Shown: positions 19,245 to 51,737 of the stretch, in pieces
Layout of the letters: each line of letters begins with the position of its first letter
Position numbering within the stretch: the first letter of the stretch is position 1
Assembly (NCBI GenBank): GCA_001898485.1
Contig: MKTY01000008.1
Span: 1 to 64,000 of the forward strand
Reading direction: 5' to 3'
Length of the DNA: 64,000 bases
Origin: Sphingobacteriales bacterium 46-32
Lineage (GTDB): Bacteria; Bacteroidota; Bacteroidia; Chitinophagales; Chitinophagaceae
Translations under genes and position numbers: made by a program
The notes under the pieces: model-generated
The model's input: only the letters and a program-made list of their open reading frames with translations
The model's database searches: none
Told to the model about the DNA's origin: nothing

Positions 19245-19276
19245 AAAGCCCTGGCCTTCCGGTCAGGGCTTTTTTA
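19245..19276 (+). terminator. Rho-independent terminator after sucC
   Basis: AAGCCCTG-GCC ... GGT-CAGGGCTT forms a GC-rich stem around TTCC, followed by a T-run, 22 nt past the sucC stop. Confidence 0.85.
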
Positions 19277-19367
19277 CGTTTATAGCTGATAAAAACACCG
19301 TTGGTTTACCAGAAAAAAACGATAAAAATCTGTTGAAAAAGCGTTGGAAAGGGGGTACGGCGGGATG

Positions 19368-19375
19368 TAGCTTCG
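19368..19375 (+). promoter_or_regulatory. Promoter -7 box TAGCTTCG, 4 nt before the SymE-like ATG
   Basis: TAGCTTCG is followed by TAAC and then the ATG at 19380, the same 4-nt spacing seen at three other genes. It implies a transcript with almost no leader and supports ATG 19380 as the start. Confidence 0.5.
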
Positions 19376-19379
19376 TAAC

Positions 19380-19847
19380 ATGACAAGACCAGTTCATCAT
19401 TTACACGGAGTTTATTCTCTTGGCCTGATAGGCGTCAAGTACGTTCCCAAATCGAAGAAACCTGTACGCCCTCCCCGCAAGAGTGCCCGGCAGCGAATGC
19501 TCGAAGAGGAGCCTGTACTGGAAGCCGCCATTGATGTGGATCTAAAGCCCAGATCCCTCAAAATTCAGCCCTTAATTCGTTGCAGTCTGTTTAAGGATAC
19601 GCGGGTTCCCGAAATCCGTTTTAGTGGCAAATGGTTAGAAAAACTGGGTTTTACCGAAAAGAAACGGATCCGCATCCTGCCTTCTAAAGAACAGCTTATT
19701 CTTCAGCTCGAAGAGTTTGAAGATCCGGAGAATCCGGAAGGGGCCGTCTCTACAGAAAATGCTTTCTTTCTTCCACAGATAAGTCCGCATCCTATTGAGA
19801 ACCTGAAGGCCGGCGCATCAACAGCATGCGCCCCTTCAACTTCTTAA
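19380..19847 (+). CDS. SymE-like type I toxin family protein
   Basis: 155-aa protein whose residues about 76-110 match the SymE toxin domain: VPEIRFSGKWLEKLGF followed by a basic strand KRIRILPSKEQLILQL. SymE (E. coli) is an AbrB-like SOS-induced protein described as an RNA endonuclease or nucleoid-binding toxin, silenced by the antisense RNA SymR. This homologue carries an extra N-terminal region of about 70 basic residues (VPKSKKPVRPPRKS) and an acidic tail. It stands alone between terminated sucC and a candidate structured RNA. No antisense promoter is evident over its 5' end, so control by antisense RNA is unproven. Domain sure; toxicity inferred. Confidence 0.75.
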   Translation: MTRPVHHLHGVYSLGLIGVKYVPKSKKPVRPPRKSARQRMLEEEPVLEAAIDVDLKPRSLKIQPLIRCSLFKDTRVPEIRFSGKWLEKLGFTEKKRIRILPSKEQLILQLEEFEDPENPEGAVSTENAFFLPQISPHPIENLKAGASTACAPSTS

Positions 19848-19904
19848 AGTAATACACCTCCATCAACCCTTTACCACATACCCTTTACCTATAATTCAAC
19901 ATTC

Positions 19905-20027
19905 TTTATGAGACCGCTGGCTTCTAAACAGTGTTCCTGAATCCCAACTGGATAGCCCGGCAGAATCCGGTTCATTGCCTAACCAATACCATCCAGCGAT
20001 CTCATAAATGCTGCCGGGCTTTTTTTC
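19905..20027 (+). ncRNA. Candidate pseudoknotted structured RNA with its own terminator
   Basis: P1: TTTATGAGACCGCTGG (19905-19920) pairs with CCAGCGATCTCATAAA (19993-20008), 15 of 16 bases. Inside, P2: AACTGGAT (19946-19953) pairs with ATCCGGTT (19965-19972, one G-U), leaving an 11-nt loop. The first 10 nt of that loop, AGCCCGGCAG (19954-19963), are perfectly complementary to CTGCCGGGCT (20011-20020), which starts 2 nt after P1 and runs into TTTTTTT. So helices A-B-A'-B' interleave as a pseudoknot, and the last helix doubles as a terminator. A short ATTG/CAAT hairpin (19974-19987) is also possible. It lies 57 nt after the SymE-like gene and 74 nt before gluQRS. I do not recognise a named RNA family. 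Confidence 0.6.
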
Positions 20028-20099
20028 AGATAAAGAATCAGTACCCTTCCGTTGCTTTCAATAACACAAATGAAGTAAATTGCTTTATAACTATTTGTA

Positions 20100-21017
20100 T
20101 TGACAAGCTATCATAGTATCCGTGAATATCCATCCCGTATTCTTACCCGGCTGGCCCCTACTCCCAGCGGGTTCCTGCATCTGGGTAATATTCTTTCCTT
20201 TGCGCTCACCGCCTATTTTGCCGAACGTACCGGCGCCCGCATCCTGCTTCGCATCGATGACATGGATCAATTGAGAGTTGAAAAAAAGTATGTAGACGAT
20301 ATTTTCGACACATTAGCTTTTATGGGGCTGCCATGGGATCAAGGACCGGCAAATTATACAGATTATGCACAGCAGCATACCCAACGGCTGCGTATGCCGC
20401 ATTATGAGCAGGCTTTAACACAGCTGGCAGAGGCAGGTCATATTTTTGCCTGTACCTGCTCACGCTCGCAACTGGCCCAACTGCCAGCGGGCAGCGGATA
20501 CCCCGGCACCTGTGAGCATAAAAAACTGCCGCTCGATACACCTGATGCCAGCTGGCGCATCAAAACATATAAGAACAGGACATTAACCGTACAGCGTCTG
20601 GGCACATCGCCCGTCAGTCTGCCACTACCTGCATCCATGCATGGTTTTGTAGTCCGGAAAAAAGATGGCGACCCGGCTTATCAGCTTACATCGCTTCTCG
20701 ATGATCAACTGGCAGGAACTGATCTGATTGTACGGGGCATCGATCTCTGGCCCAGCACCTGGGCACAACTCTACCTGGCAAGCCTGCTGCGGATACAAAG
20801 CTTTGAAGAAACAAGCTTTATTCACCATCCCTTGTTGTTGGGAACAATGGGGCAAAAACTCAGCAAATCTGCCGGCGATACCTCTATCCTTCAACTGCGT
20901 CAGATGGGCTGGTCAACTGCTGAGATTTATACACAGATCACTTCGCTGCTGGGATTTGAAAAGAAAGCCGGCAGCTGGCAGGAACTGGCTATGCTGGCAA
21001 CACGGTTGTTTGCATGA
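20100..21017 (+). CDS. gluQRS: Glutamyl-Q tRNA(Asp) synthetase
   Basis: Truncated glutamyl-tRNA-synthetase homologue (305 aa) lacking the anticodon-binding domain; such proteins attach glutamate to the queuosine base of tRNA(Asp). Marks: RLAPTPSGFLHLGN (HIGH motif), the Zn-type Cys cluster ACTCSR...YPGTC, IVRGIDLW, and KLSKSAGD (KMSKS). Start chosen at TTG 20100: the frame has a stop at 20088-20090 and no ATG or GTG before the HIGH motif, and TTG gives the usual short lead of about 20 residues. It follows the candidate structured RNA by 74 nt, so that RNA might be its leader. QueA, another queuosine gene, is at 42992. Confidence 0.88.
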   Translation: MTSYHSIREYPSRILTRLAPTPSGFLHLGNILSFALTAYFAERTGARILLRIDDMDQLRVEKKYVDDIFDTLAFMGLPWDQGPANYTDYAQQHTQRLRMPHYEQALTQLAEAGHIFACTCSRSQLAQLPAGSGYPGTCEHKKLPLDTPDASWRIKTYKNRTLTVQRLGTSPVSLPLPASMHGFVVRKKDGDPAYQLTSLLDDQLAGTDLIVRGIDLWPSTWAQLYLASLLRIQSFEETSFIHHPLLLGTMGQKLSKSAGDTSILQLRQMGWSTAEIYTQITSLLGFEKKAGSWQELAMLATRLFA

Positions 21018-50765: not shown

Positions 50766-51620
50766 ATGAAAAAACTGGCATTCCTGTTACTATTGATCCC
50801 CATGGGCAGCATGGCCCAGAACTTCCATCTTTCTACCCGCCTGGGCATAATGTCATATCAGGGTGATCTCAAAGCCAAATCACTCTCACTGTCCCAGAGT
50901 AAATTTATGGGCTCACTGGGTGTGCGGTACGATCTTACTGAGCACCTTGCCTTACGTTCTTACCTGACTCTGGGCGGTTTGCGGGCCGATGACAAAAAAG
51001 GAACAGCCTCTATGAAAATGCGTAACCTTAATTTCTCCAGCAGCATCTTTGAATGGGAAGCCGGTCTGCACTACAGTATACTCGACCTGAATTATCACTG
51101 GTGGACGCCCTATGTGTATGCCGGTATTGCCCTTTATCATTTTAAGCCGCGAACCAAAGATGAAAACGGTGAAAAGGTTTTTCTTCAGCCACTTTCTACC
51201 GAAGGCCAGGGCGTAGTAGCCGGCGTTGATAAATACAAGCTCACTCAACTCAATATCCCCCTCGGCATCGGTGCAGAGCGCATGCTCAATGAAGATATGC
51301 GGGTAGGCCTTGAAATGGGCTATCGCAAATTATTTACCGATCACCTCGACGACGTAAGCGGCAACTATGCAGACCAGTCGGTCCTTTTTGCTGCAAAAGG
51401 GCAACAGGCTGTCGACCTCGCCTATAGAGGCGATGAGGTAGGCGCTGGCCCCTATCCCGCTGCGGGTGCCACCCGTGGCAACAGCAAAAACAAAGACGGC
51501 TATTTCTACATAGCCGCCACCTTCACTCTACGTTTTTACTTTGACAAATACAAACAGATTGCCGGACTGCCGGGATCAAAAAGAAGTAAAAAAGTAGGTT
51601 GTCCGGCCAATAGGTTTTAA
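50766..51620 (+). CDS. DUF6089-type outer membrane protein
   Basis: 284-aa protein with signal peptide (1-18, ending GSMAQ) and an eight-stranded-barrel-like layout: FHLSTRLGIMSYQGDLK, FEWEAGLHYSILDLNYHWWTPYVYAGIALYHFKP, LGIGAERMLNEDMRVGLEMGYRKLFTDHLDDVSGNY. These blocks match DUF6089 proteins, which resemble the type IX secretion ring protein PorG. Whether it is PorG-like in function cannot be decided. The tail after the last strand is basic (GSKRSKKVGCPANRF), so the barrel ends before residue 265. Monocistronic by context. Confidence 0.82.
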   Translation: MKKLAFLLLLIPMGSMAQNFHLSTRLGIMSYQGDLKAKSLSLSQSKFMGSLGVRYDLTEHLALRSYLTLGGLRADDKKGTASMKMRNLNFSSSIFEWEAGLHYSILDLNYHWWTPYVYAGIALYHFKPRTKDENGEKVFLQPLSTEGQGVVAGVDKYKLTQLNIPLGIGAERMLNEDMRVGLEMGYRKLFTDHLDDVSGNYADQSVLFAAKGQQAVDLAYRGDEVGAGPYPAAGATRGNSKNKDGYFYIAATFTLRFYFDKYKQIAGLPGSKRSKKVGCPANRF

Positions 51621-51639
51621 GAGAAAGGTATAATGGGTG

Positions 51640-51737
51640 TAAAAGTTTAAAAGTATAAAGAGTTTAAAGAGTGCATAAACCTCCTTAAACCCTTTATACT
51701 TTTAAACCTTTAAACTTTTATACTTTTATACTTTTTT
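51640..51737. repeat. AT-rich inverted repeat between convergent genes
   Basis: TAAAAGTTTAAAAGTATAAAG (51640 onward) is mirrored, with an extra 7-nt TTTAAAC-type insert, by TTTATACTTTTAAACC...AAACTTTTATAC up to about 51737. It lies between the ends of a plus-strand and a minus-strand gene; the long A/T arms could stop transcription from both sides. Confidence 0.6.

Follow-up and report, generated by a model that had tools for sequence, protein, structure and literature searches.

Which gene, if any, is served by the structured RNA that lies between a SymE-like toxin gene and gluQRS in Sphingobacteriales bacterium 46-32? We analysed a stretch of 64,000 nucleotides from this genome (G000; 5.49 Mb, 27 contigs), referred to here as the window. 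Along its + strand, to which all features below belong, the order is sucC, an intrinsic terminator-like site (19245–19272; a 12-pair stem with a U-rich tail), a SymE-like open reading frame (ORF1), the RNA element and a GluQRS-like gene. No tRNA or tmRNA was found in the window.

ORF1 (19380–19847, 155 aa) matches Pfam PF08845 SymE_toxin with an E-value of 6.1e-6 and 26.7 bits, under the gathering score of 29 bits, and judged from its sequence the protein is related to the SymE toxin but divergent. A related genome of the same genus, G001, keeps 133 of the 155 residues. A candidate promoter (TTG, ~20 nt, TAGCTTCG; 19344–19375) precedes the ORF, whose start lies only a few bases past the promoter box (19344–19379), so that the SymE-like mRNA may be nearly leaderless. 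The GluQRS-like gene (20100–21017, 305 aa, TTG start likely) encodes a protein whose best family is TIGR03838 GluQRS, with 189.9 bits, below the cut-off of 276.7.

The preliminary description placed three complementary pairs between these two genes, two of them interleaved in the order A-B-A'-B', and this arrangement (19905–20020) is borne out exactly. The 5' arm of the closing stem, A (19905–19920), pairs with the 3' arm, A' (19993–20008), at 15 of 16 positions, the exception being C19914 opposite A19999; the pairing was recovered in the motif scan and in a duplex test. Inside it lies an inner hairpin of 8 bp, one of them G-U, which was read from the sequence and appears in the fold with the B strands open (19946–19953 with 19965–19972). 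The pseudoknot helix is formed by B (19954–19963), which is the exact reverse complement of B' (20011–20020). The following U-run, a possible transcript end (T7, 20020–20026), takes its first T from the last base of B', leaving six T after the helix. Between the inner hairpin and A', a small 4-bp hairpin (19974–19987) is weakly indicated by the fold with B open; its sequence is identical in G001.

Arrangements of this kind were scored by their stacking energy over all A-B-A'-B' combinations in which A' lies at most 5 nt before B'. The element reaches -50.8 kcal/mol (local 250 nt), and none of 2000 dinucleotide shuffles is as good, the best reaching -32.3. It is also the strongest such arrangement in the window (250-nt tiles, both strands), the runner-up having -38.4. 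The motif scan also picked out a group of A+T-rich repeats of the TAAAAGTTTAAA type, some inverted and some direct, at 51553–51728. The ordinary minimum free energy (MFE) z-score is modest (-2.05 on the + strand; -1.73 on the minus strand) because an ordinary fold cannot include the pseudoknot, and the element is missing from a simple hairpin terminator scan since its loop is too long. The B word GCCCGGCAG occurs four times in the window (both strands) versus 0.51 expected. One extra copy, at 19485–19493, sits inside ORF1 and is probably due to chance, as one base differs in G001.

With the B strands open, the best nested fold (-27.9) combines stem A with two small hairpins and the inner hairpin, whose 11-nt loop holds B; the best nested alternative reaches -33.0. 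Closing the B helix would contribute a further -25 or so in stacking, not counting a pseudoknot penalty, so that by this estimate from stacking energies the knot is probably the most stable state. Ten pairs in an 11-nt loop would be sterically tight, so the inner hairpin and the full-length B helix may not fully coexist. Within 19848–20099, other partners of B and B' reach at best -13.1 and -12.0, respectively, versus -22.1 and -21.1 with each other. As no other segment there pairs comparably with either strand, the element is not the usual either-or attenuator.

We compared three genomes of the genus, G000 (window), G001 and G002, and all three contain a structured RNA with the loop-tail pseudoknot. 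The RNA of G001 is identical to that of the window at 113 of 116 bases; fourfold sites of four flanking genes (sucC in part) are 70–81% identical. The three differences (columns 10, 19 and 25) leave every kept pair in A, B and the inner hairpin untouched. Upstream of A, the G001 spacer is scrambled (39 of 55 aligned bases identical; lengths 57 versus 89 nt). The conserved spacer before gluQRS (20027–20099) matches the RNA in conservation, with 75 of 77 aligned bases of 20021–20099 identical, and contains no convincing promoter. A coding reading of the element was rejected: G001 has a 2-nt deletion that interrupts the 62-codon open frame of the window, and the open frames of 78 and 97 codons in G002 have no Pfam match at E <= 1.

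G002 is more distant, its GluQRS being 58% identical to that of the window, and has the same gene order of sucC, short ORF, element and gluQRS. The intergenic regions show no overall alignment (83 of 500 shuffles score as well), and the only words of at least 8 bases common to both are two 9-base words in the same order, GCCCGGCAG of B and GCTGCCGGG of B' (20010–20018). The closing stem has a different sequence yet still pairs: in G002 (locus L026), 1297–1308 and 1408–1419 form 11 bp with one bulge, ending 4 nt before B', and this stem appears in the unprompted MFE fold. The G002 arrangement scores -42.1, which none of 2000 shuffles reaches, but the best shuffle has -41.4. In a looser duplex test of A with A', 10 of 500 shuffles do as well in G002 and 0 of 500 in the window. 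Four unrelated loci (L040, L041, L052 and L061; 309 kb, one strand) also reach -42 or better, and the G002 score alone is therefore not unique; position and the identity of B and B' carry the weight. The G002 fold is a branched junction from which the inner hairpin is absent, so this hairpin is weakly supported, and there is no U-run after B', the sequence there being ATTCGTGG. The ORF in the SymE-like position of G002 (L026 1033–1281) encodes a basic protein of 82 aa that matches nothing in Pfam or NCBIfam; BLASTP gives no clear similarity either (E 0.85), and by this measure the gene is replaced or diverged.

The preliminary description had named homologues without compensatory changes as evidence against the structure. 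Such changes were found in the one homologue that is informative. Because the score lies beyond the shuffles, the RNA is nearly identical in G001 and A is re-paired in G002 around the same B and B', the pseudoknot very probably exists and has been conserved.

The covariance search suggested at the same time was run: the window RNA has no match among Rfam 15 families at the gathering score, and covariance model R1 finds only G000 and G001 among 394 genomes of the bacterial family and misses G002. BLASTN of the window RNA in 59 relatives and in the genus yields no wider homologues, other matches in G000 being pieces of 18–28 nt. The G002 element, searched against 393 genomes, matches 13 besides G002 in pieces of 19–33 nt; six of these 13 were read and by eye are coding-like sequence or nothing alike. 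The exact B/B' pattern occurs in nine of 147 genomes, three of which are those of the genus, and five of the six others were read as plain hairpins or coding sequence (the G125 locus was left out). A GluQRS scan of genome contigs returned five loci, namely two known relatives and three distant proteins. At 11 gluQRS and 27 sucC loci outside the genus we found nothing alike on the gene strand at a threshold of -38 (the upstream flank of L027 is short). The motif at sucC locus L089 (-41.4) is a repeat-type hairpin of unrelated sequence, and that at L030 (-38.6) lies downstream of gluQRS and is not alike.

How is the element transcribed? For the scans we used TTG/TAnnTTTG, which we take to be the promoter consensus. 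The candidate ORF promoter is found at a matching position ahead of the short ORF in G000, G001 and G002, with scores of 8–9 out of 10. The pattern was written from those three sites and shuffled background has a mean of 1.7 sites per 941 nt; with background sites so common, the evidence rests on the conserved place. Promoter words were also tried as a locus marker and rejected, as the search found the general promoter shape instead. In none of the three genomes did the 95 nt preceding B contain an exact TAnnTTTG box, and boxes before A in the window have two mismatches at best; the lack of a promoter-like box right before A is observed, but is a weak sign. The conserved ORF promoter and the lack of an exact box before B weakly favour co-transcription with the short ORF. 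One promoter-like site of score 8 touches the spacer before gluQRS, with its first box at 20094 and its second at 20117, inside gluQRS. Since 20021–20099 is as conserved in G001 as the RNA, an independent gluQRS promoter is conceivable.

The reading that we prefer, and to which we give somewhat less than an even chance, is that of a conserved, pseudoknotted, non-coding cis element of ~120 nt that terminates the SymE-like transcript and controls how much transcription continues into gluQRS. Transcription would begin at the promoter of the SymE-like ORF and continue through the ORF. The closing stem A-A' would form first and bring loop strand B beside the newly made B'; the B-B' helix would then close next to the U-run, halt RNA polymerase and leave a folded 3' end. 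Polymerase would reach gluQRS when the knot fails to form; alternatively, the gene would have its own weak promoter within 20027–20099. Of this, the pairing, its conservation and the exchanged closing stem of one homologue are observed, and we infer co-transcription, termination, the dependence of termination on A and the control of gluQRS. The earlier proposal that the last helix acts as a terminator could hold in two of the three genomes: a G+C-rich helix followed by a U-run is present in G000 and G001, but not in G002, where termination is for this reason not a conserved feature. Against the cis reading, homologues are few, being confined to three genomes of one genus. If it is true, a pseudoknot-dependent terminator would couple RNA folding to the expression of a tRNA-modification gene.

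A second group of RNAs bears on the alternatives. Kawano et al. observed in 2007 that sequences ahead of some SymE starts are conserved at the nucleotide level, and suspected that RNA is the regulator there (PMC1891008). At six of 17 SymE-like loci of other genera we found a conserved RNA directly before the toxin start, arranged in the order A, B, T-loop-like hairpin, A', B' and U-rich tail; the hairpin (GG-UGNRAGU-CC) directly follows B, and its loop resembles a T-loop as judged by its bases. Two-sided changes occur at seven of nine B/B' pairs among six seed sequences (0 of 500 shuffles), and at eight of nine in alignment A7 (11 sequences), which leans on the seed because six of its 11 sequences are the seed and it was fitted to the structure of covariance model R2. 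Helix A has no covariation count and is supported by duplex energy. R2 has strong matches (E <= 1e-5) at 12 places in 11 of the 394 genomes, and at E <= 0.5 it matches 39, these E-values being rough. Only the strong matches were taken as members; the 28 genomes with weaker matches only (~18–26 bits) were set aside, three weaker-match loci being inspected. Eleven of the 12 member places were read (G193:C209 was left out).

Seven of these 11 places precede SymE-like genes, two guanylate kinase genes and one a nucleotidyltransferase-like ORF, and one has no ATG ORF of at least 50 aa within ~260 nt. Two of the SymE-like proteins and one guanylate kinase were tested against Pfam; the second guanylate kinase and the nucleotidyltransferase-like ORF were named by eye. 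The loci examined, all in other genera, are L040–L044, L046 and L122–L132 (SymE-like, guanylate kinase and other loci). A' runs antisense to the start of the toxin gene at five of the seven SymE loci (0 of 300 shuffles) but not at the other two (43 and 236 of 300). Complementarity to the guanylate kinase starts is marginal (7 and 8 of 300), and to the nucleotidyltransferase-like ORF there is none (81 of 300). A' also pairs upstream of B beyond shuffles at nine of the 11 loci (at most 4 of 500; L128 17 of 500, L131 89 of 500). The strict motif scan recovers crossing A and B helices in L043, L044, L046, L130, L131 and L132, does not show them in L041, L042, L128 and L129, and at L040 chose a toxin-start hairpin instead. 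An exact TAnnTTTG box stands in the 95 nt before B at seven of the 11 loci, versus 23 of 658 background windows, and by reading it seems to sit just before A. In L130 and L132 the RNA lies ~70 nt before the guanylate kinase genes, with an TAAATTTG box before A and an TTCCTTTTT end.

The family RNA has no Rfam 15 match at E <= 0.5, and no tRNA or tmRNA was found at the 11 loci. One strict family motif had no match in viral contigs and one family member had none in plasmids. No title among the literature matches listed (open-licence papers) describes the window RNA or the family RNA, and the group of knotted SymE-leader RNAs is apparently undescribed. A strongly covarying family without an Rfam 15 match would give a testable answer to how some non-enterobacterial SymE-like toxins may be silenced.

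The main rival to the cis terminator sees the window RNA as free-standing and trans-acting, ~120 nt long from A to the U-run, and as a divergent relative of this family that lacks the T-loop; we regard this as possible but unlikely. The order A-B-A'-B'-U-run is that of the family, with crossing helices and B' 0–5 nt after A', the neighbour is SymE-like, and B/B' are of the same sequence type, close to GCCTGGCAG/CTGCTGGGC in G079 and CCCGGCAG/CTGCCGGG in G005. Covariance model R3, which was built without the window RNA, scores that RNA highest of all hits in the 64 kb, at 20.7 bits (E 6e-4) against 14.7 for the runner-up, and gives its G001 counterpart 19.6 bits. By analogy with the seven of 11 family loci that have their own promoter box, the window RNA might be free-standing as well; it has no exact box, a feature not universal in the family either, and those before its A carry two mismatches. 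R2 finds no match in G000 at E <= 0.5 when searched genome-wide, ~20 bits is weak on that scale, and neither R2 nor R3 recognises the G002 element beyond chance. The T-loop-like hairpin motif has no match in the window at up to two mismatches, the R3 alignment skipping that region, and the RNA lies 3', not 5', of the SymE-like ORF. Because it lacks this hairpin, has a degenerate box, an A' that does not match the ORF1 start and a reversed order, because the G002 element goes unrecognised and because matches of ~18–26 bits are all that 28 genomes have in the R2 search, we did not file the window RNA in the family. A broader proposal assigns it, as a diverged member, to a new class of pseudoknot RNAs in this bacterial family that would be free-standing. 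Their A' would pair either with A, acting as an upstream copy of a start-codon region, or with a SymE-like toxin gene next to it, at the start of that gene. The B-B' helix would double as the terminator, one knot both ending the RNA and deciding whether the toxin start is covered, and in the window the device would be re-used to gate gluQRS. We consider this doubtful.

The remaining explanations are improbable to differing degrees. A riboswitch-like leader of gluQRS that senses a ligand or a tRNA, which would suit a strongly conserved (in G001) pseudoknot with a terminator-like end before a tRNA-modification gene, is improbable: no alternative anti-terminator pairing was found in 19848–20099, no Rfam family matches, and none of 11 gluQRS loci outside the genus has an upstream A-B-A'-B' of -38 or better in the fetched flank. 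Pairing between the window RNA and the start of gluQRS is at chance level (148 of 300 shuffles). The preliminary description also raised an RNA antitoxin of the neighbouring SymE-like ORF, prompted by the neighbourhood; SymE is RNA-controlled in E. coli (PMC1891008), and RNAs of a similar kind in other genomes are antisense to the symE start. The suggestion is not supported here: pairing with the ORF1 start is at chance level, being equalled in 63 of 300 shuffles for the whole RNA and in 283 of 300 for A', and the element is kept in G002, whose short ORF has no SymE, Pfam or NCBIfam match. An antitoxin is very improbable. An ordinary terminator, a chance inverted repeat or the end of a mobile element finds parallels in the strong simple hairpins with similar G+C-rich words of other genomes of the bacterial family and in the four unrelated loci with motifs of -42 or better. 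Such an origin nevertheless seems highly improbable for an element that 0 of 2000 shuffles equal, that is kept in three genomes with one stem replaced, that is not multi-copy (the other G000 matches being 18–28-nt pieces) and that has no plasmid or phage match.

How does the element compare with known systems? In type III toxin-antitoxin systems, ToxI is an H-type pseudoknot RNA beside a toxin gene. The window RNA is likewise an H-type pseudoknot by a toxin-like gene, but unlike ToxI it is not upstream of the ORF. 6S RNA shares the long closing stem and open interior, but none of the three genus genomes matches RF00013 or RF01685 at E <= 10 and the G002 element is a branched junction. As in the SymE/SymR pair of E. 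coli, a SymE-like protein stands beside a candidate regulatory RNA; SymR, however, is antisense and overlaps symE (PMC1891008), whereas the window RNA is downstream on the same strand, has chance-level complementarity and so lacks the type I feature of an RNA complementary to the toxin mRNA start. The T-loop family (A6, A7) differs in its T-loop-like hairpin, its frequent own promoter box and an A' that is antisense in five of seven SymE loci, none of which the window RNA has.

Shigella belongs to a different phylum from the organism of the window, and the gene upstream of gluQ-rs there, dksA, is unrelated to the one in the window. In Shigella flexneri, gluQ-rs lacks its own promoter: it shares a transcript with dksA, and an intergenic terminator restrains it, which is a precedent for the cis reading preferred here (PMC3542578). 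That terminator is a simple hairpin overlapping the predicted start (PMC3542578), whereas the window has a two-helix pseudoknot ~80 nt upstream. The general plan is nevertheless the same in both, with gluQRS behind another gene and a terminator-like RNA structure between the two (PMC3542578).
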